Source of the DNA: a virus
Direction: 5' to 3' (one strand)
Length of the DNA: 39,462 nucleotides
Virus record (IMG/VR): IMGVR_UViG_3300025289_000060
Coordinates: 1-39,462 of that record
A model generated the notes under the pieces. It worked only from the letters and a program-made list of their open reading frames with translations, did no database searches and was not told the origin of the DNA. This document shows positions 3,359-23,936 of this stretch, piece by piece. The position numbers were made by a program, and so were the translations under genes. Positions within the stretch are counted from its first letter, which is position 1. Each line of letters opens with the position of its first letter.

Positions 3359-3694
3359 ATGAGGGTCTATGTAGCTGGTCCGTACAGCGGCGGGGACATC
3401 ATCCTGAATATCCGGGCGGCCATTCGGGCCGCAAGTAGGATCATGGACGCAGGTCATGCTCCATTCTGTCCGCACCTGACGGGCATCTGGCATCTAGTAA
3501 GCCCAAAGGAGTACGAGCAGTGGCTTGCCTATGACTTCGAGTGGATTAGGGCGTGTGAGGCACTGGTGAGGCTGCCGGGGGAGTCTCCGGGAGCAGACCG
3601 GGAGGTGAAGATAGCCGAGGAGGAAGGGATACCAGTGTACTTCGGCGTGGGGGCATTCTTGGCGGCTCAGGCCCCGAAGAGGAAGACAAAATGA
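3359..3694 (+). CDS. DUF4406 / nucleoside 2-deoxyribosyltransferase-like protein
   Basis: 111 residues. It begins MRVYVAGPYSGG, the nucleotide-binding start of the nucleoside 2-deoxyribosyltransferase-like fold, followed by the PFCPHLT..WH segment and the SPGADREVKIAEEEGIPV segment typical of phage DUF4406 proteins. The family is thought to act on N-glycosidic bonds of nucleosides or nucleotides, for example in nucleotide salvage or base modification. The catalytic Glu cannot be confirmed by eye. The stop overlaps the NeuB-like gene start, so the two are probably coupled. Confidence 0.7.
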   Translation: MRVYVAGPYSGGDIILNIRAAIRAASRIMDAGHAPFCPHLTGIWHLVSPKEYEQWLAYDFEWIRACEALVRLPGESPGADREVKIAEEEGIPVYFGVGAFLAAQAPKRKTK

Positions 3695-4539
3695 CCCTAG
3701 CACCTTGGTTCGATGAGACCTATATCGTGGCGGAGATTGGGATCAACCACAATGGGAACTTCGAGATGGCCAAGGAGTTGGTCTTGATGGCTGCCCGATG
3801 TGGGGTGAATGCGGTCAAGTTCCAGAAGCGAAGCCCAGAGCTATGTGTCCCCAAGGACCAGTGGAATCTCCCAAAACAAACCCCCTGGGGCATAATGGAT
3901 TATCTAGGCTACCGCTATCTGATGGAGTTCAACTCAGCCCAGTACCGACAACTCCAATGCATCGCTCGGACTCATGACTTGGACTTCTTTGCTTCGGTCT
4001 GGGATGGGGAAGCTGTTGAATTCATGAAGCGCCTCGACCCTCCATTCATCAAGATACCCAGCGCCGTTCTAACCGACGCCAGCACGCTCCAAGCCGCCGC
4101 CAGCTTAGGCAAGCCTATCTTCCTGTCAACTGGCATGAGCACCATTAGGCAGATTCAACATGCCTTGGAGATCCTACGGTCGGCCGATGTCCTACTGATG
4201 CACTGCGTCAGCATGTACCCCTGCCCCGTTGAGAACCTGAACCTACAGATGATCCCAGCCCTCAAGCGCACGTTCGGTAGGCCCGTTGGGTACTCTGGTC
4301 ATGAGGTTGGCCTAGCTCCAACTCTGGCTGCTGTTGTCCTCGGAGCAGAAGTCGTCGAGCGCCACATTACCTTGGACAGGGCGATGTGGGGGAGCGACCA
4401 GGCCGCCTCCGTTGAGGAGCAGGGCCTACGCAAACTGGTCAAGGACATCCGCACGATCGAGAAGGCGATGGGGGATGGAGAGAAGCGCGTCCTGCCTGAG
4501 GAACTAGAGCAGGCGAAGAAGCTGAGGAGGGTATTATGA
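3691..4539 (+). CDS. N-acetylneuraminate synthase-like protein (NeuB/SpsE family), lacking SAF domain
   Basis: 282 residues forming a NeuB TIM barrel: VAEIGINHNG at 13-22, AVKFQKR at 41-47, FFASVWD, FIKIPSAVLTD, FLSTGMST, HCVSMYPCP, VGYSGHEVGL and VVERHITLDRAMWGSDQAAS in the expected order. NeuB condenses phosphoenolpyruvate with N-acetylmannosamine (or a related sugar) to make sialic or pseudaminic-type acids. Full-length NeuB proteins are about 340 residues and end in a SAF (antifreeze-like) domain that caps the active site across the dimer; here the protein ends at KKLRRVL just where that domain would start. It may be a barrel-only variant or use a partner. No other sialic acid gene is nearby. 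Confidence 0.85.
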   Translation: MTLAPWFDETYIVAEIGINHNGNFEMAKELVLMAARCGVNAVKFQKRSPELCVPKDQWNLPKQTPWGIMDYLGYRYLMEFNSAQYRQLQCIARTHDLDFFASVWDGEAVEFMKRLDPPFIKIPSAVLTDASTLQAAASLGKPIFLSTGMSTIRQIQHALEILRSADVLLMHCVSMYPCPVENLNLQMIPALKRTFGRPVGYSGHEVGLAPTLAAVVLGAEVVERHITLDRAMWGSDQAASVEEQGLRKLVKDIRTIEKAMGDGEKRVLPEELEQAKKLRRVL

Positions 4540-6037: not shown

Positions 6038-6045
6038 TAGTTTGT

Positions 6046-6079
6046 CAGACCTCCTCTGACATTTGTCAGAGGAGGTCTG
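6046..6079. terminator. 15-bp perfect hairpin, probable terminator
   Basis: The arm 6046-6060 pairs perfectly with 6065-6079 around the four-base loop ATTT. It lies nine bases after the stop of the secreted protein and before the helicase gene. No long T tract follows (TCATTCCC), so it may be an intrinsic terminator without a strong U run, an RNase barrier, or a protein-binding palindrome. Within the 5' arm GTCAGA and TCTGAC can pair on their own, allowing an alternative smaller hairpin. Confidence 0.6.
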
Positions 6080-6101
6080 TCATTCCCAGAAGGACCCTTT
6101 A

Positions 6102-7436
6102 GTGGATCTTTATCCTTTCCAGAAGGATGCCCTGACCTTCCTCGACGAAGCAGGAGGACGAGGCATCCTTGGTGACGAGATGGGGCTGGGCAAGACGGTC
6201 GAGGCGTTGGCTTGGGCCAGGACCAAGCCGGATATCAAGCGCGCCCTGATTATCTGCCCAGCCTCAGTTCTCTACAAGTGGCAGGACGAATGCAAGCGAT
6301 GGTGGGGGAAGCCGTCCGAAGTTATCGTAACTTCCAAGGACCCGATCGGCTACTGCCCCGTCACCATTATGACCTACGGCATCCTGACCAACCGAGTCCT
6401 GGAACTGGTCGGGAAGGTGTGGGATCTTGTCATTATTGACGAGTTTCATTATGTAAAGTCCTACAAGGCCAAACGAACGATCGCCGTCCAGGCGGTTGCC
6501 GCGGGAATTCGATACATCCTGCTCCTGTCCGGTACGCCCATGCTGAACCGCCCAATGGAATTGTTCAACGGGCTGAACATGATCAACAAGAAGGTGTGGG
6601 GTAGCCCTTTCGCATTTGGCCATCGCTACGCCGGCGGCCTGACTGATCGGGGCTGGTTCCAAGGATCATCCAATGAGGGGGAACTCCAGCGCCGCCTCCG
6701 GCCCTACATGATCCGCCGCCTGAAGACCGAGGTGCTAGCTCAGTTGCCGGAGCTTCGACGTATCTATGTCCCTATTGACATACCCAACATGAAGGAGTAC
6801 AAGCAGGTAAGAGCACAGGTCCGGGCCGCCCTCAAGGAATTCGACCCCACACACAAGGGCTACTTCGTCAACGCCCTAGACAAGCTCAATGCCCTGCGCA
6901 GGGTCGTTGGGATAGGTAAGAGCACGGTTGCGATCGAGTGGGCGGAAGAGTTCCTATCCCAGACCGAAAGTAAGTTGGTCATCTTCGTCCACCACAAAGA
7001 GAACATGGACACGATCCAGAAGGCCCTGCACGAAAAGTACGGGGTCACTACCATATCAGGGGAGACCCCGGCCCGGTTCCGCTCAGATAGGATCGGCACG
7101 TTCCAACATCCCGGCCGGCCCCGTGTCATGATCGTCACCATGGCAGGGGGCGAGGGCATCGACCTGTTCGGGCTAAATGGGGTGGACTCCAGCACTCTGC
7201 TCATGGTAGAGCGAGAATGGAACCCGGCCCGAGAAGAGCAGATGGAGGCCCGGCTGCATCGCTTGGGTCAAAGATCTGCGGTCAATGCATACTACCTTTC
7301 AGCACGACGAACCGTGGACGACAAGTTCTACCACCTGGTCGAAGCCAAACGGGAGATCCTCAAGCGTATCATCGGGGCCGATGTTCCAACTACCCTGGTC
7401 AAAGACCTGATTGAGTCTCTGGAGATTGATACTTGA
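6102..7436 (+). CDS. SNF2-family DEAD-like helicase/translocase
   Basis: 444 residues from GTG 6102, chosen because AGAAGGA lies seven bases upstream and the domain starts immediately (LYPFQKDAL); the longer TTG start at 6063 would begin inside the terminator hairpin. Helicase motifs in order: GDEMGLGKT at 24-32 (Walker A), ICPASVLYKW, DEFH at 113-116 (Walker B), LSGTP at 142-146, MAGGEGIDLF (motif V) and EARLHRLGQRS (motif VI). This is the Swi2/Snf2 layout, closest in size to SMARCAL1-like minimal translocases. It probably remodels DNA-protein complexes or forks during phage replication. Confidence 0.88.
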   Translation: MDLYPFQKDALTFLDEAGGRGILGDEMGLGKTVEALAWARTKPDIKRALIICPASVLYKWQDECKRWWGKPSEVIVTSKDPIGYCPVTIMTYGILTNRVLELVGKVWDLVIIDEFHYVKSYKAKRTIAVQAVAAGIRYILLLSGTPMLNRPMELFNGLNMINKKVWGSPFAFGHRYAGGLTDRGWFQGSSNEGELQRRLRPYMIRRLKTEVLAQLPELRRIYVPIDIPNMKEYKQVRAQVRAALKEFDPTHKGYFVNALDKLNALRRVVGIGKSTVAIEWAEEFLSQTESKLVIFVHHKENMDTIQKALHEKYGVTTISGETPARFRSDRIGTFQHPGRPRVMIVTMAGGEGIDLFGLNGVDSSTLLMVEREWNPAREEQMEARLHRLGQRSAVNAYYLSARRTVDDKFYHLVEAKREILKRIIGADVPTTLVKDLIESLEIDT

Positions 7437-7460
7437 CAACCCGGAAAGTCGTGGTAACAT
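7433..7460 (+). promoter_or_regulatory. Sigma70-type promoter for the tRNA-like module
   Basis: TTGACA (7433-7438), 16-base spacer, TAACAT (7455-7460). The -35 is a perfect consensus and the -10 matches four of six. Predicted start is near 7467, within a base or two of the first TGGCGGG module, so the transcript would begin with that structure. The -35 overlaps the stop codon of the helicase gene. Confidence 0.6.
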
Positions 7461-7465
7461 GATGA

Positions 7466-7583
7466 TGGCGGGCGGCGTGAATATAGGACACGCAAAGGGT
7501 GAAGGGGCATGGGCCGGAGATGCGGCGCGAGAGCGTGACAGCGGTGGAGCCAGCCTAGAGCCGGTGCAAGTCCGGCCCCGCCA
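7466..7583 (+). ncRNA. tRNA-like structured RNA, module A
   Basis: TGGCGGG (7466-7472) pairs with CCCGCCA (7577-7583), a 7-bp end stem. Two bases later GCGTG/CACGC (7475-7479 with 7489-7493) forms a D-arm-like hairpin whose 9-base loop contains GG. At the 3' side GCCGG/CCGGC (7560-7564 with 7572-7576) encloses a 7-base loop and abuts the end stem directly, as a T-arm does. The middle, about 66 bases, is too long for a simple anticodon plus variable arm; it holds a GCGC-GAGA-GCGT hairpin. A promoter sits just upstream. It is not a normal tRNA: the T-loop lacks TTC and position 8 is C. No coding signal with a ribosome site is present. Confidence 0.5.
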
Positions 7584-7604
7584 ACTGACTGGGACAAGCC
7601 TGCG

Positions 7605-7790
7605 ATGCGCCTAGCATTCATGTTCGGACGAGGCTTTGTTGGCCTCGATAGCCCGACGGGCAGAAGCCGAATAGGCCTCCGCGTGGTAAATATCGGGGAC
7701 CGAACCGACCCAGACGGGGCGCTGAGAGCAGGCAAATTTACAACGGCTGTGAAGATGGCACTTTCGGTGAAGATGGCGGGCGGCGTGTGA
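7605..7790 (+). CDS. Doubtful small ORF between modules A and B
   Basis: 61 codons starting ATGCGCCTAGCATTC, without a convincing ribosome site. It ends in TGATG overlap with the HNH gene, which would allow coupling. Its last codons read through an 11-base direct repeat GTGAAGATGGC (7749-7759 and 7767-7777) and the 5' end of module B, giving VKMALSVKMAGGV. I recognise no family and regard it as likely non-coding; it is listed because nothing else accounts for 7584-7773. Confidence 0.2.
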   Translation: MRLAFMFGRGFVGLDSPTGRSRIGLRVVNIGDRTDPDGALRAGKFTTAVKMALSVKMAGGV

Positions 7791-8146
7791 TGAAACGATG
7801 TCCATCGTGTGATACCTACAGGCCAGAATCTGATTTCCATAGAGATGCATCCAGATCAGATGGCCTGGATTGGCGGTGCAAGCGATGTAAGTATGAAAGG
7901 GAAACCGCCAGGGCTCGGCGGGAAAGAGACGCCAGGCGCTATGCTAAAGACGCACGCCGGCCCCTTGCCAGATCGGCGGCAAAGGCTAAATGGGGCAGCC
8001 CCTTGAGCCATTCATGCTCTATCCTAGGATGTCAAAAGCAAGCCGAGGAATGGCATCATCTGAACTACAATCATGCGCTTGTTGTACTTCCTTTGTGCCG
8101 GGAACATCACACAATCGAGCGCGAACAGTAGCGCCCGGCCCCGCCA
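7774..8146 (+). mobile_element. Module B: same ends as modules A and C, interior replaced by an HNH gene
   Basis: The element starts TGGCGGGCGGCGTG (7774-7787), identical to the first 14 bases of module A, and ends CCCGGCCCCGCCAACTGACT (8135-8154), matching the 3' end of A and most of C. TGGCGGG and CCCGCCA form the same 7-bp end stem. The HNH ORF fills the interior almost exactly: its ATG is at base 17 and its stop is 4 bases before the conserved 3' segment. This looks like an endonuclease gene lodged in, or carried by, a structured RNA element. The mechanism is inference. Confidence 0.5.
7790..8131 (+). CDS. HNH endonuclease, homing-type
   Basis: 113 residues from ATG 7790 (an in-frame GTG lies one codon upstream). 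No strong SD is visible; translation may depend on the TGATG overlap with the upstream ORF. An N-terminal zinc ribbon uses CPSC at 4-7 and CKRC at 30-33, then a very basic helical region, then the HNH core: C76...C81, EWHHLNYNH at 87-95 and LPLCREHH at 100-107. His-His-Asn with Cys/His zinc ligands fits phage HNH nucleases that nick or cut DNA to spread themselves. It lacks a RuvC domain, so it is not IscB or IsrB. It is housed inside module B. Confidence 0.8.
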   Translation: MKRCPSCDTYRPESDFHRDASRSDGLDWRCKRCKYERETARARRERDARRYAKDARRPLARSAAKAKWGSPLSHSCSILGCQKQAEEWHHLNYNHALVVLPLCREHHTIEREQ

Positions 8147-8206
8147 ACTGACTAGGGTGCCCCTCCATGTGGTGCGCACGTCCCAGACACCACCGGAGAT
8201 GCACAA

Positions 8207-8315
8207 TGGCGGGCGGCCAATCCTGCGGGAACGGCCTATACGGGCAGATAACAGATAGCCGTAATGGAGCCTGCAACTGCCGACAACGAGCCGGGAGGAA
8301 GCCCGGCCCCCGCCA
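8207..8315 (+). ncRNA. tRNA-like structured RNA, module C, in the leader of the next gene
   Basis: TGGCGGG (8207-8213) pairs with CCCGCCA (8309-8315) as in modules A and B. A D-arm-like GGCC/GGCC stem (8215-8218 with 8233-8236) has a GGG-containing loop; the 3' hairpin GCCGGG/CCCGGC (8290-8295 with 8302-8307) sits one base from the end stem. GGCAG (8243-8247) can pair with CTGCC (8277-8281) to close the middle. Its sequence differs from A except at the ends and stems, which suggests conserved structure. It ends 20 bases before the next ATG, so it may regulate that gene. Confidence 0.45.
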
Positions 8316-8335
8316 ACTAACGAAGGAGAAGCACA

Positions 8336-8602
8336 ATGGCTGATAGGGTAGTTCGATTGATCCTCACAGAAATCAAACCAGATAGCGCCGATTACAAGAA
8401 CCGCCTGACTCTGAGCGGAAGTCCTATTTCGGTCGCCGTTGATGTTCCAGAGCCAATGCTGGAGGGCGACTCGTTGACTCCTCAGGGCCTAGCCTACGTC
8501 ATGACGGAGATCGATTTGGCTCTCCAGCGAGGCTATGCCCTGCGGAAGGCCGAGTACGACGACATCATCAGCGGAGCCTATGTCAAGAAATCAAAGAAGT
8601 AA
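8336..8602 (+). CDS. Hypothetical protein, 88 aa
   Basis: AAGGAG site upstream of ATG 8336. Begins MADRVVRLILTEIKPDS, mostly mixed beta/alpha character, ending in a basic YVKKSKK tail. No transmembrane segment and no recognised family. Its leader contains module C and the gene is followed by a second structured RNA, so it sits in an unusually structured transcript. Confidence 0.7.
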   Translation: MADRVVRLILTEIKPDSADYKNRLTLSGSPISVAVDVPEPMLEGDSLTPQGLAYVMTEIDLALQRGYALRKAEYDDIISGAYVKKSKK

Positions 8603-9218: not shown

Positions 9219-9514
9219 CCTTCAAACCCATCACCTACGAGACCTATGGGAAGACAGAGACCTGGGGCGTAGACTATGAGAACAACCTTGTCCTCACCCC
9301 AGGGGGGAATGTCCTTCCCGTGTCGGGCCTTATTGAATGGCTCCGGCATATCACTCACACGAATGATCTTTACTCTGAGCGACTCCAACGTGTGCGGCTC
9401 CTAGTAGGACCGGAGCAGCGGGCGTTGATTGAAAAGGACTGGGGTGAACGATGTAGAAGCGAGGCCGCAAGGCTTAGATCACAAGACACAGATAAGGAGA
9501 ACATAGATGCGTAA
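9215..9514 (+). CDS. Hypothetical protein, 99 aa
   Basis: ATG 9215 was chosen because GAGGAG lies eight bases upstream and the start overlaps the preceding stop (ATGA); ATG 9209 is too close to that site. The N-terminal half is probably beta-rich (TWGVDYENNLVLTPGG), the C-terminal half a charged helix (LYSERLQRVRLLVG to the end). No family recognised. Ends 8 bases inside the next gene. Confidence 0.65.
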   Translation: MTFKPITYETYGKTETWGVDYENNLVLTPGGNVLPVSGLIEWLRHITHTNDLYSERLQRVRLLVGPEQRALIEKDWGERCRSEAARLRSQDTDKENIDA

Positions 9515-10320: not shown

Positions 10321-10662
10321 ATGAACGTGGAAGGGTTCGTACCAGATTACACACCGGGCGTCGATACAAAGTGTGATATGTGCTTCGGAACAGGGGAAGC
10401 ACAGACCTACGTCACGGAAGACGGCGAACAGATTTGGGGAACAACCGATGTCAATTGGGAACTACCGGAGGGTGCTAAGATCGCTGAGGTTCTTTGTAGA
10501 ACCTGTGGTGGGACGGGTATCATGCCAGAGACTTTGAAGCCCGGTTACTGGCAACAGCGGATTGAGGAGTGCAAAAAGGGCAACAACCCTCTAAACGTTC
10601 TCAAGATGGCCATCAACCCTCTAAACGTTCTCAGGATAGCCATCAAAGCCATCGTTGGTTAG
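10321..10662 (+). CDS. DnaJ-type zinc-finger protein, 113 aa
   Basis: AGGAGG upstream. Two CxxCxGTG units (CDMCFGTG near residues 19-26 and CRTCGGTG near 60-67) match the zinc-binding repeats of the DnaJ Cys-rich domain, without a J domain. Such stand-alone modules are frequent small phage proteins. The C-terminus ends with NPLNVLKMAI followed by NPLNVLRIAI, the product of a 30-base tandem duplication. Upstream of the RNA ligase gene by 11 bases. Confidence 0.7.
   Translation: MNVEGFVPDYTPGVDTKCDMCFGTGEAQTYVTEDGEQIWGTTDVNWELPEGAKIAEVLCRTCGGTGIMPETLKPGYWQQRIEECKKGNNPLNVLKMAINPLNVLRIAIKAIVG
10584..10643 (+). repeat. Two tandem 30-base repeats inside a gene
   Basis: 10584-10613 and 10614-10643 differ at only two positions and stay in frame, duplicating ten residues (NPLNVLKMAI / NPLNVLRIAI) at the C-terminus of the zinc-finger protein. 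Looks like a recent slippage or unequal-crossover event. Confidence 0.85.
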
Positions 10663-10673
10663 TAGGAGGAACC

Positions 10674-11570
10674 ATGCATATCAGTTCGTATGCTACGGTG
10701 TACGCCCTGGGACACAAAGCTATTTTGGACATCTTCTCCAGTTCAGTAGTGGTGCAGGAGAAGATCGACGGCTCCCAGTTTAGTATGGCCAGGACAGAAT
10801 CAGGAGAACTGGTCTGCCGCTCCAAGTCCGCCGAGATCCAGATAGACGAGCCGGAGAAGATGTTCAAGAATGCCGTCGATACGGCCAAGTCACTTGATCT
10901 TCGTCCGGGCTGGGTCTACCGCTGTGAGTATCTAAGTAAGCCAAAACACAACACACTGGCGTACGATCGTACGCCCAACAAGTACCTAATCGTCTTCGAC
11001 ATAGACACCGGGACGGAAAGCTACGTATCGCAGGGGGGCCTGGCCCTTGAGTGCGAGAGGTTGGGCTTGGAATACGTCCCACTATTCTATGAGGGCAAGA
11101 TTACGGGAATGGCTGACCTGGACACATTCCTTGATCAGGTATCCGTCCTCGGGGGCTCCAAGATCGAGGGCGTCGTCGTCAAGAACTACGACCAATTCAC
11201 CCCAGAGAAGAAGGTGGCGATGGGGAAGTTTGTCTCCGAGCGGTTCAAAGAGATCCACAACGCCGACTGGAAGGAACGCAATCCATCTACCAAGGACATC
11301 GTTACCCGTATCGTAGACAAATACCGCTCGGAAGCCCGCTGGGAAAAAGCTATTCAGCACCTCCGCGACGTCGGGAACCTGACTGAATCTCCCAAGGACA
11401 TTGGGGCGCTTATCAAGGCAGTTCCAGAAGACATCCTGACGGAATGTGCAGATGAGATCATGGAAGCCCTATTCACCCACATTTGGCCGGACATTCGGCG
11501 TGGGGTGACCCGAGGGCTTCCCGAATGGTACAAACGAAAACTAGCAGAGACTTCCTTCCCGACTGGGTAA
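10674..11570 (+). CDS. RNA ligase, Rnl2-like
   Basis: 298 residues from ATG 10674, which has AGGAGG six bases upstream; a longer in-frame start would overlap the previous gene. Nucleotidyltransferase motifs are visible: QEKIDGS at 28-34 with K30 the likely AMP-accepting lysine, YRCEYLSKPKHNTLAY (motif III region), LIVFDID (IIIa-like), EGVVVK at 165-170 (motif IV) and KKVAMGKF (motif V region). The C-terminal ~100 helical residues fit the extra domain of Rnl2/DraRnl-type enzymes. In T4, RNA ligase repairs cleaved tRNA during infection; that role here is inference. Confidence 0.8.
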   Translation: MHISSYATVYALGHKAILDIFSSSVVVQEKIDGSQFSMARTESGELVCRSKSAEIQIDEPEKMFKNAVDTAKSLDLRPGWVYRCEYLSKPKHNTLAYDRTPNKYLIVFDIDTGTESYVSQGGLALECERLGLEYVPLFYEGKITGMADLDTFLDQVSVLGGSKIEGVVVKNYDQFTPEKKVAMGKFVSERFKEIHNADWKERNPSTKDIVTRIVDKYRSEARWEKAIQHLRDVGNLTESPKDIGALIKAVPEDILTECADEIMEALFTHIWPDIRRGVTRGLPEWYKRKLAETSFPTG

Positions 11571-21385: not shown

Positions 21386-21388
21386 CAT

Positions 21389-21458
21389 GGCAGGGCGCGG
21401 CCCGGCAAGGTAGGGCAGGGCATGGCTCGGCCTGGCTTGGCGTGGCGAGGCAGGGTAC
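21389..21458 (+). repeat. GGCNN pentamer array 1, 14 units
   Basis: Reads as 14 uninterrupted five-base units, GGCAG GGCGC GGCCC GGCAA and so on, ending GGCAG GGTAC. Twelve units start GGC, two start GGT. The last two bases of each unit vary freely. It fills the gap between two genes almost exactly: it starts three bases after a stop codon and ends four bases before the next likely ATG. GG every five bases on the plus strand is also a two-tier G-quadruplex pattern. Confidence 0.95.
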
Positions 21459-21462
21459 AAGG

Positions 21463-22008
21463 ATGCTAGAAGTTCTTAGTCGTCTAAAGTTTGAAGATTC
21501 AAAGAAGATCGACTGGCTACCTGGGTCGCGAGTCAAGATGTTTATGGCGTTGGCTCCCGACATCAAAGCCTGGGCTGTTGGGATCGATCCCGGCAGGAAC
21601 TTTGGGATTGCGATCGCCACCAAGGGCTACGTTGTTGTCTATGATGGAAGCCTCCCACAGCAACCAGAAAAATGGAAGTATGGTGTCTTGGCGATCGATC
21701 TGGTCAAGCGCATCTTCTCGGGACCTCCCCAGAACTTCCAAGTGGGGATTGTTGAGGGTCCGGCGTTCAATGCCCGATATGGTCAAGTTTCGTTGGCCGA
21801 GGCGAGATTCGGATTCCTGTACGGACTGATCGAAGTTGGGGTCAAAGATGTTCGAGTAGCGGCCCCGGCTAGCATTCGAAAGGTCGTCTTGGGAGGAGGT
21901 CGATATCCGGTACCGTATGAAACTTGGCCCAGATTGTCCACAAATGGAACAGATGCGTTGCTAGCCCTAGGATTTGCCCTCTTGACAATGGACAAATCCG
22001 GCGTATAA
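21463..22008 (+). CDS. RuvC-like (RNase H fold) Holliday junction resolvase candidate
   Basis: 181 residues from ATG 21463, though the ribosome site there is poor and ATG 21538 is an alternative; the frame stays open through the upstream array, which I regard as non-coding. VGIDPGRNFGIAIA (39-52) supplies D42, IVEGPAF (96-102) supplies E98, and TNGTDALLALGFAL (160-173) supplies D164, the acidic triad of RuvC-type nucleases. Probably cuts branched DNA before packaging or during recombination. The stop codon TAA is part of the TATAAT box of the next promoter. Confidence 0.7.
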   Translation: MLEVLSRLKFEDSKKIDWLPGSRVKMFMALAPDIKAWAVGIDPGRNFGIAIATKGYVVVYDGSLPQQPEKWKYGVLAIDLVKRIFSGPPQNFQVGIVEGPAFNARYGQVSLAEARFGFLYGLIEVGVKDVRVAAPASIRKVVLGGGRYPVPYETWPRLSTNGTDALLALGFALLTMDKSGV

Positions 22009-22009
22009 T
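21982..22009 (+). promoter_or_regulatory. Perfect sigma70 consensus promoter
   Basis: TTGACA (21982-21987), 16-base spacer, TATAAT (22004-22009), both boxes perfect matches. Predicted start is near 22016, two bases before the first pentamer of array 2, so the transcript would have about 120 bases of GGCNN repeat at its 5' end before the phosphoesterase gene. The -10 box overlaps the upstream stop codon. Confidence 0.8.
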
Positions 22010-22017
22010 GGATTCAT

Positions 22018-22139
22018 GGCGCGGCTAGGCGCGGCTAGGCGAGGCAAGGCTGGGCAGGGCGAGGTACGTGGCGAGGCCAGGCAAGGCGAGGCAGGGCGTG
22101 GCGAGGCAAGGCGAGGCATGGCGGGGCGAGGCGAGGTAC
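22018..22139 (+). repeat. GGCNN pentamer array 2, 24 units in two blocks
   Basis: Block one, 22018-22067, has 10 units ending GGTAC; two bases GT; block two, 22070-22139, has 14 units ending GGTAC. All other units begin GGC. The phase shift of two bases happens only after GGTAC. The array lies between a perfect promoter and the metallophosphoesterase gene and forms most of the untranslated leader. The 14-unit block has the same length as array 1. Confidence 0.95.
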
Positions 22140-22167
22140 AGGGGTAGACTAACAACAAGGAGAGAAA

Positions 22168-23312: not shown

Positions 23313-23622
23313 GCTCATCCAGAGTGGGGCGTTCGTTGTCGATGACCCGATCCTAGTCTTTCCTGGATCGAATCTGAACCCAGAGGAGCTGTGGAAGCGG
23401 GGCGAGAATGCCCTGATGGTCTCCGTTCGAGTTCAGCGCAATCGAGTTATGAGAACTAGGCCGACCGTCCCTCAAGGATGGACAACGGAGGTGGAGATCA
23501 GGTTCGATCCCCAAATCATCGAACCCCCGGCGATTGTCCAGGCTCTTGAGGTTGCCGGTTTGGAGCGGGGCTTGGGGGATTGGCGACCTAAGTATGGTCG
23601 GTTTCTCGTAGAGCAAGTCTAG
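23047..23622 (+). CDS. Hypothetical protein, 191 aa, last gene of the plus block
   Basis: AAGGAGG upstream. Begins MLQVLKVRLCGASQMILHNGQTANPLNKFAK and ends GLGDWRPKYGRFLVEQV. The fold appears alpha/beta with strong conserved-looking pieces (LPAHNIEATMLEGAKK, DDPILVFPG, RVQRNRVMRTRPTVP), and the final GDWRP..GRF element is one I associate with an uncharacterised phage family. No catalytic motif. The stop codon overlaps the first GGTAC of array 3. Confidence 0.7.
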   Translation: MLQVLKVRLCGASQMILHNGQTANPLNKFAKQLKAVSRKKNKTEDDMEELAKIEFLAGWYQNPAGAYTLPAHNIEATMLEGAKKNKNGKLIQSGAFVVDDPILVFPGSNLNPEELWKRGENALMVSVRVQRNRVMRTRPTVPQGWTTEVEIRFDPQIIEPPAIVQALEVAGLERGLGDWRPKYGRFLVEQV

Positions 23623-23874
23623 GTACGCGGCCCGGCGCGGCAAGGCTCGGCAGGGCAGGGCATGGCGAGGCGAGGTACGTGGCAAGGTGCGGCGTGGCTT
23701 GGCTGGGCGCGGCTTGGCGAGGCAGGGCGAGGTACGAGGCGTGGCGTGGCTAGGCTTGGCCGGGAGAGGCTTGGCAAGGCCCGGCAGGGCGAGGCGAGGC
23801 GAGGTACGTGGCAAGGCTTGGCCTGGTGGGGCGTGGCTCGGCGAGGTGAGGCAAGGCTGGGCGAGGCAAGGTAA
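23622..23874 (+). repeat. GGCNN pentamer array 3, 49 units in four blocks
   Basis: A leading GGTAC (23622-23626), then blocks 23629-23678 (10 units), 23681-23735 (11), 23738-23807 (14) and 23810-23874 (13). The first three blocks end GGTAC, the last ends GGTAA. Blocks are separated by GC, GT, GA and GT. Five internal units deviate (GGTGC, GGAGA, GGTGG, GGTGA and the final GGTAA). The array begins on the last base of a stop codon and runs to six bases before the terminator hairpin, so it is the 3' untranslated end of the plus-strand unit. Confidence 0.95.
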
Positions 23875-23880
23875 ACAAAA

Positions 23881-23899
23881 GGCCCGAATGACTCGGGCC
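23881..23899 (-). terminator. Intrinsic terminator for the minus-strand unit
   Basis: GGCCCGA (23881-23887) pairs with TCGGGCC (23893-23899) around ATGAC. On the minus strand the hairpin is followed by TTTTGTTT, the U-rich tail of an intrinsic terminator. It would stop transcripts coming from the virion genes before array 3. Confidence 0.75.
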
Positions 23900-23912
23900 A
23901 CAATAGATGTGG

Positions 23913-23936
23913 AAGGGCGGCCCTAGAGCCGCCCTT
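23913..23936. terminator. Strong hairpin, probable bidirectional terminator
   Basis: AAGGGCGGC (23913-23921) pairs perfectly with GCCGCCCTT (23928-23936) over nine bases around CCTAGA. On the plus strand it is followed by CTTCGTT. It lies 5 bases from the stop of the minus-strand holin candidate, between the convergent units, and probably works with the neighbouring hairpin. Confidence 0.7.

Follow-up and report, generated by a model that had tools for sequence, protein, structure and literature searches.

Genomic context of the putative leader region

The window analysed here, the whole 39,462-nucleotide stretch of virus record IMGVR_UViG_3300025289_000060, is a phage fragment kept as a virus record. 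A second contig of the same phage (G001), found via its polymerase, is 99.6–99.96% identical and is the only relative found; it spans the window from position 9396 onward plus 18.6 kb beyond, and thus begins downstream of the module region described below. Protein searches with the helicase or the HNH protein gave no useful close relatives.

Between the end of an SNF2-type helicase gene and gene 8336 lies a stretch of about 900 nt with a weak coding signal, as judged by codon score. It contains in order a promoter, module A, a small frame (7605–7790), module B (7772–8153) and module C, and the coordinates are collected in Table 1. The product of gene 8336 matches no PHROG family. The rightward operon continues with small genes, followed by genes for an RNA ligase (10569–11570), a DnaB-type helicase, DNA polymerase A, a methylase and a UvsX-like recombinase; the ligase gene is the one that the initial annotation had placed at 10674. 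No strong intrinsic terminators were found on the plus strand of the operon downstream of module A.

Table 1. Features at the head of the rightward operon (window coordinates).
Feature	Position	Strand	Remarks
SNF2-type helicase gene	6063–7436		upstream limit of the ~900-nt stretch
Promoter TTGACA-N16-TAACAT	7433–7460	+	extended −10 (TGG before TAACAT); consensus match only; predicted start ~7467
Module A, putative structured RNA	7466–7589	+	closing stem 7466–7472/7577–7583; H1 7475–7493; middle 7494–7559; H3 7560–7576; tail 7584–7589
5' end of module B, GATGGCGGGCGGCGTG	7772–7787	+	identical to module A 7464–7479
HNH/endonuclease VII-like gene	7790–8131	+	N-terminal zinc ribbon; between the two ends of module B; PHROG
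3' end of module B, CCGGCCCCGCCAACTGACT	8135–8153	+	identical to module A 7572–7590
Module C	8207–8321	+	closing stem 8207–8213/8309–8315; H1 8215–8218/8233–8236; H3 8290–8307; tail ACTAAC
Gene 8336 (88 aa)	8336–8602	+	first well-supported coding gene past the leader region (codon score); GAAGGAG upstream

Several other features of the window deserve mention. A 40-nt imperfect palindrome (6043–6082) lies just upstream of the annotated start of the helicase frame and overlaps it. A cluster of small genes (26–1762) has repeated start regions, GAGGCCCAGCATGAATGA, at 704, 907, 1199 and 1513, and a 29-nt repeat with a 6-bp hairpin at the gene ends at 271 and 517. With the gene at 3691–4539, of the NeuB family (Pfam PF03102, E 9e-74), this phage encodes a synthase of the sialic-acid type. 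Three arrays of the form (NNGGC)n, with GGC every five bases and hence a period unfit for coding, are present at 21386–21462, 22018–22140 and 23613–23873, and are possibly repetitive phage RNAs; the second begins 9 nt past a 12/12 promoter (TTGACA-N16-TATAAT, 21982–22009) and the third is followed by two hairpins. A sub-threshold match to the cyanobacterial RNA Yfr1 on the minus strand at 23879–23934 (28.8 bits against 38, E 0.0046) is probably a pair of terminator hairpins.

Module A and its predicted promoter

The initial annotation held that a promoter of its own starts an RNA directly at the first stem of module A, and this is supported by the sequence. The site matches 10 of the 12 consensus positions, with a TG extension in addition, and the predicted transcription start coincides with the first base or two of the closing stem. 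Sites of at least 10/12 are rare on the plus strand of the window (five are listed, and two of these represent the promoter itself at alternative spacings). It is therefore improbable that such a site would by chance place its start no more than one or two bases from the stem (∼4e-4 by our own estimate). When the cut-off was lowered, promoter-like sites as a class were no commoner than in shuffled sequence.

The tRNA-like layout that had been described was recovered exactly at 7466–7583. TGGCGGG (7466–7472) and CCCGCCA (7577–7583) form seven Watson-Crick pairs, and a CG linker separates this acceptor-like closing stem from H1, a D-arm-like hairpin of 5 bp (GCGTG, 7475–7479, with CACGC, 7489–7493) whose loop, AATATAGGA, contains GG. 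A middle region of 66 nt (7494–7559) leads to H3, a T-arm-like hairpin with a 5-bp stem (GCCGG, 7560–7564, with CCGGC, 7572–7576) and the 7-nt loop TGCAAGT, which abuts the closing stem. The minimum-energy fold of 7466–7583 consists of this junction plus the middle region folded as an irregular arm, with a stability that is ordinary for shuffled sequence (z −1.0). The extent first given, 7433–7583, covers the stems and misses both the conserved 3' tail (ACTGAC, 7584–7589) and two further copies of the ends.

A loose scan for tRNA geometry with G-U pairs allowed gave six matches on the plus strand, compared with four to ten in shuffled sequences; since such geometry is common under these limits the scan was uninformative, and it was replaced by one restricted to Watson-Crick pairs. 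In the strict scan 7466–7583 is the sole match in the window on either strand. A strict match turned up in 1.3% of 150 Markov-simulated windows when the D-stem had to reach 3 bp, and in none when it had to reach 4 bp, compared with 5 bp in module A. Since the geometry was chosen by eye before the test, this chance figure serves as a guide only.

Repeated module ends and the HNH gene of module B

Both ends of module A occur in three copies within 900 nt, the 5' end (ATGGCGGGCGGC) at 7465, 7773 and 8206, and the 3' end at 7572, 8135 and 8304 (CCGGCCCCGCCAACTGAC or a slight variant of it), and no further exact copies are present in the phage. The 5' and 3' ends are mutually complementary (TGGCGGG/CCCGCCA) and can pair with each other. 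Module C has the same 7-bp closing stem as module A. Both also have a GCCGG/CCGGC hairpin adjoining the stem's 3' strand and a second hairpin immediately inward of its 5' strand, albeit with different H1 sequences (GGCC/GGCC in C, GCGTG/CACGC in A). Module C folds better than its shuffles (z about −2.0 to −2.5) and ends directly before the ribosome-binding site of gene 8336. It is flanked by a near-identical 16-nt repeat, GGAGAWGCACAATGGC, at 8195–8210 and 8325–8340, which covers the ribosome-binding sites of the frame in C and of gene 8336.

When the interiors of the three modules were aligned locally, no significant similarity emerged; the global alignment of A with C exceeds all 300 shuffles (z 5.3). 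The 5-bp partner of H3 is present exactly in both A and C, and shuffled interiors yield the same in 3.0% and 2.6% of cases, respectively; the corresponding figures for H1 are 2.8% for the 5-bp stem of A and 16% for the 4-bp stem of C. Selection on RNA structure in the modules is supported but not proven.

Inside module B, between its two ends, lies a gene whose HNH/endonuclease VII-like product matches PHROG families 1035 (E 1.4e-9), 2255 (E 4.6e-9) and 2340 (E ∼1e-9), the kind of protein expected of a homing HNH insertion. Its codon usage is atypical for the phage. Modules A and C are paralogues and not alleles of an empty site. The most plausible reading of the HNH gene is a homing-type insertion into one copy of the module, which it took over.

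A probable relative in a second phage

A covariance model built from module A alone (R1) was searched against 662 kb, made up of the remainder of this phage and of loci from other phages that carry a helicase of the same family. The best match outside the module region is L158:2058–2168 (16.6 bits, E 1.2 for the 662 kb), an E-value that is not significant taken alone. The match shares TGGCGaGGCGGCGTG, CACGCAA, AGCCGG and CCCCCGTCAATTAA with module A in register. At L158:2057–2169 the closing stem spans nine positions (TTGGCGaGG/CCcCGTCAA) with one A/C mismatch, the CG linker and the GCGTG/CACGC hairpin are the same as in A with a longer loop, and a 3' hairpin, GCCGG/CCGAC with one C/A mismatch, abuts the closing stem. 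The 3' part resembles module C as well (GCTGATAATTAGCCGG compared with GCCGACAACGAGCCGG).

The match is made credible by its genomic context. The stretch has 54–56% GC in a 41% GC contig and is intergenic, directly upstream of an operon that encodes a GTP-binding-domain protein (per PHROG), a helicase, a primase and a replication initiator. The helicase is of the same family as that of the window, with 33% identity; the L158 phage, whose contig also carries a terminase small subunit and a partition protein, is otherwise unrelated to this one. Evidence for a promoter there is weak (about 8/12, judged by eye).

Ranked by combined similarity to A and C, L158 came first among 295,064 sequence windows, half of them reversed controls, albeit by a small margin over GC-richer controls (114.2 compared with 113.2). 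Global alignments of L158 with A (z 4.0) and with C (z 3.5) each beat all 300 shuffles. A second model built from C and L158 (R3) found A as its best match outside its own sequences and the duplicate contig (17.9 bits, E 0.3), a result driven by the ends shared with C. Taken together, we consider L158:2057–2169 a probable true homologue of module A, and hold this with reasonable confidence.

Nucleotide similarity searches in phages and plasmids gave short chance matches only. Among the listed matches that were inspected, exact and gapped patterns of the ends in viral and genome collections yielded no further member: with the exception of L158's own contig (L216), these matches fall in coding-type sequence or look like chance. 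A last viral scan with the 3' end pattern likewise added nothing beyond that contig. A run of R1 over the whole records of 12 phages with the helicase missed even the known L158 match, and its outcome has no negative value.

Known RNA classes

At gathering score, Rfam returned no families in the whole window. ARAGORN reported no tRNA and no tmRNA (a tRNA-like domain with a tag frame), and with Rfam relaxed to E-values of up to 10 neither a tRNA nor a tmRNA model appeared; module A is neither of the two. A match to the Twister-sister ribozyme (RF02681) reached 16.2 bits against a gathering score of 34 and covers only model positions 15–64 of 81, leaving out the outer stem and the cleavage-site strands. 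For group II introns only group-II-D1D4-4 was matched, at 10.9–12.7 bits against 49, with no match to domain V. These two were the only sub-threshold matches at module A, and both depend on the UGCAAGU hairpin, whose T-loop-type motif is a common one. A group I intron and a transposon were likewise rejected, there being no model match, exon or transposase.

Alternative explanations

The initial annotation had suggested that module A could be a tRNA mimic, a decoy for tRNA-cleaving host defence or a substrate of the phage RNA ligase. On this reading it would be made as a free RNA of about 118 nt that occupies such nucleases or tRNA-binding proteins, or on which the ligase acts. The tRNA-like spacing of acceptor, linker, D-arm and T-arm in A is indeed rarer than chance, the 7-nt T-loop-type loop keeps T54, C56, R57, A58 and T60 at their positions, and the phage does encode an RNA ligase; moreover, L158 retains the CG linker and the abutting 3' hairpin. 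However, the combined acceptor, D and T arm geometry is found in module A only, where an anticodon arm of normal size (5-bp stem, 7-nt loop) is missing, tRNA matches are absent from ARAGORN and Rfam, and in place of a free 3' NCCA there is only a CCA paired inside the closing stem and then ACTGAC. No terminator or processing signal was found that would release the RNA. The loop TGCAAGT is confined to A, its counterparts being AGGAAG in C and AGTAGCGA in L158. With the T-loop absent from C and L158 and the CCA inside the stem, tRNA mimicry is without comparative support, even though the layout of stacked hairpins recurs in L158, and we regard it as very improbable. What stands of the proposal is a structured RNA with a promoter of its own, its layout recurring in the probable homologue. 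A leader is a better fit than a decoy for an element at the head of an operon, and so it is for C and L158, whose 3' ends are followed by a ribosome-binding site at a distance of a few to about 30 nt.

The main rival to a leader RNA is that A, the frame at 7605–7790 (ORF2), the HNH gene and C are ordinary small phage protein genes, short and overlapping, with duplicated start and end regions, in which case the HNH gene would have interrupted a third member and the complementarity of the ends would be incidental. It owes this standing to the other repeated starts (GAGGCCCAGCATGAATGA, four times) and the repeated 29-nt gene end elsewhere in the phage. A (MAGG...RPRQLT...) and C (MAGG...GPRQLT...) each have an open frame that starts at an ATG and runs on through the conserved end, in the same phase in both. 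Two synonymous third-position changes (CTG/CTA and ACT/ACG) separate their PRQLT codons, a good SD precedes C (GGAG-N7-ATG), and stops and starts overlap along the row. On the other hand, neither conserved end of B lies in a long frame, AGCCGG is common to A and C but in different frames, the predicted transcription start falls inside the start codon of A, and the matching stretch of L158 is intergenic; the peptides of A, ORF2 and C have no family or tblastn match beyond chance (tblastn with ORF2 and C only). By codon score the A frame lies in the 12th–21st percentile of genes and the 91st–95th of wrong frames and the C frame scores poorly (5th percentile of genes), a test that is not decisive here because the HNH gene, whose coding status is certain, itself scores as wrong frames do. 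On balance we find this explanation unlikely.

A third possibility, which we consider decidedly improbable, is that the ends matter at the level of DNA: they would be the terminal inverted repeats of a mobile HNH element, or the boundaries at which it recombines, A and C would be its relics, and the RNA fold would be a side effect. In its favour, the two ends are complementary in inverted orientation, an endonuclease gene of atypical codon usage lies in B, and the near-identical 16-nt repeat lies on both sides of C. Against this, the interiors of the modules are unrelated, no transposase is present, H1 and H3 within A and C are left unexplained, and homing genes usually lack terminal inverted repeats.

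A proposed leader RNA at the head of the replication operon

The repeated copy and the probable relative in L158 suggest a new kind of leader RNA and not a tRNA decoy. We favour, at close to even confidence, a reading in which A is a structured promoter-proximal leader RNA of the replication operon and one of a small family, duplicated in this phage, with one copy invaded by a homing-type HNH gene. Module A would then form the first ∼118–124 nt of the rightward operon transcript. In the proposed family layout the 5' end and a 3' end of the CCCGCCAACTRAC type form the terminal stem. One or two nt further in there would be a first hairpin, followed by a variable middle arm and by another hairpin that stacks on the terminal stem or lies next to it. 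The elbow of A that recalls a tRNA may simply result from a compact four-way junction that includes a hairpin of the T-loop type. Following duplication, C would have come to adjoin the ribosome-binding site of gene 8336, and B would have kept its ends only, around the HNH gene that replaced its interior.

We infer that such a leader acts in cis on its own transcript, either on RNA polymerase in the manner of put RNA or by closing the extreme 5' end against attack by exonucleases or RNases. The antitermination version is weakened by the lack of strong plus-strand terminators in the operon; protection of the 5' end would be a simpler role and fits equally well. More tentative, and in our view somewhat unlikely, is the broader proposal of a new phage RNA family with a tRNA-like four-way junction that starts replication-operon transcripts in unrelated phages and that an HNH homing gene can invade, much as such genes settle in introns and tRNA clusters. 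If confirmed, a second, unrelated leader family in two distant phages would offer a direct test of whether phages repeatedly control long replication operons via nascent leader RNAs. A tRNA-like outline in a single sequence should be compared with relatives before it is read as mimicry.

Comparison with known systems

To our knowledge, few RNAs act from the very start of phage early transcripts, and put is the textbook case. The put RNA of HK022, a promoter-proximal leader of ∼70 nt folded into two stem-loops, renders RNA polymerase resistant to terminators; each phage has more than one copy, of which putL follows closely on its promoter and affects terminators over 10 kb distant (PMC9378689). 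Module A, of which there is more than one copy, would similarly be a structured RNA near the transcription start of an early operon, which its position fits, and may act from the nascent transcript, as we propose here by analogy. It differs in its size of ∼118 nt and in having a closing stem plus at least three inner arms, the sequences having been compared via Rfam only.

The 7-bp closing stem, two-nt linker, D-arm-like hairpin and stacked 5-bp/7-nt hairpin of module A are like those of tRNA and tmRNA, whereas the normal anticodon arm, the free CCA, the tag frame and any ARAGORN or Rfam match are missing. Its hairpin CCGG-UGCAAGU-CCGG resembles the conserved hairpin of Twister-sister, but the UGCAAGU hairpin is missing from C and L158. 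The small stable RNAs C and D of T4 are small structured phage RNAs that lie near tRNA genes and homing genes in a tRNA cluster. Module A, putatively structured, is of about the same size and near a homing-type gene, although there is no tRNA cluster here. As for module B, the ShiLan element is an HNH insertion in a phage methylase gene with no recognisable intron or intein (PMC11855218). The HNH gene of module B is likewise inserted in phage sequence that has no recognisable intron or intein, but here it sits between the ends of a repeated, structured intergenic module.
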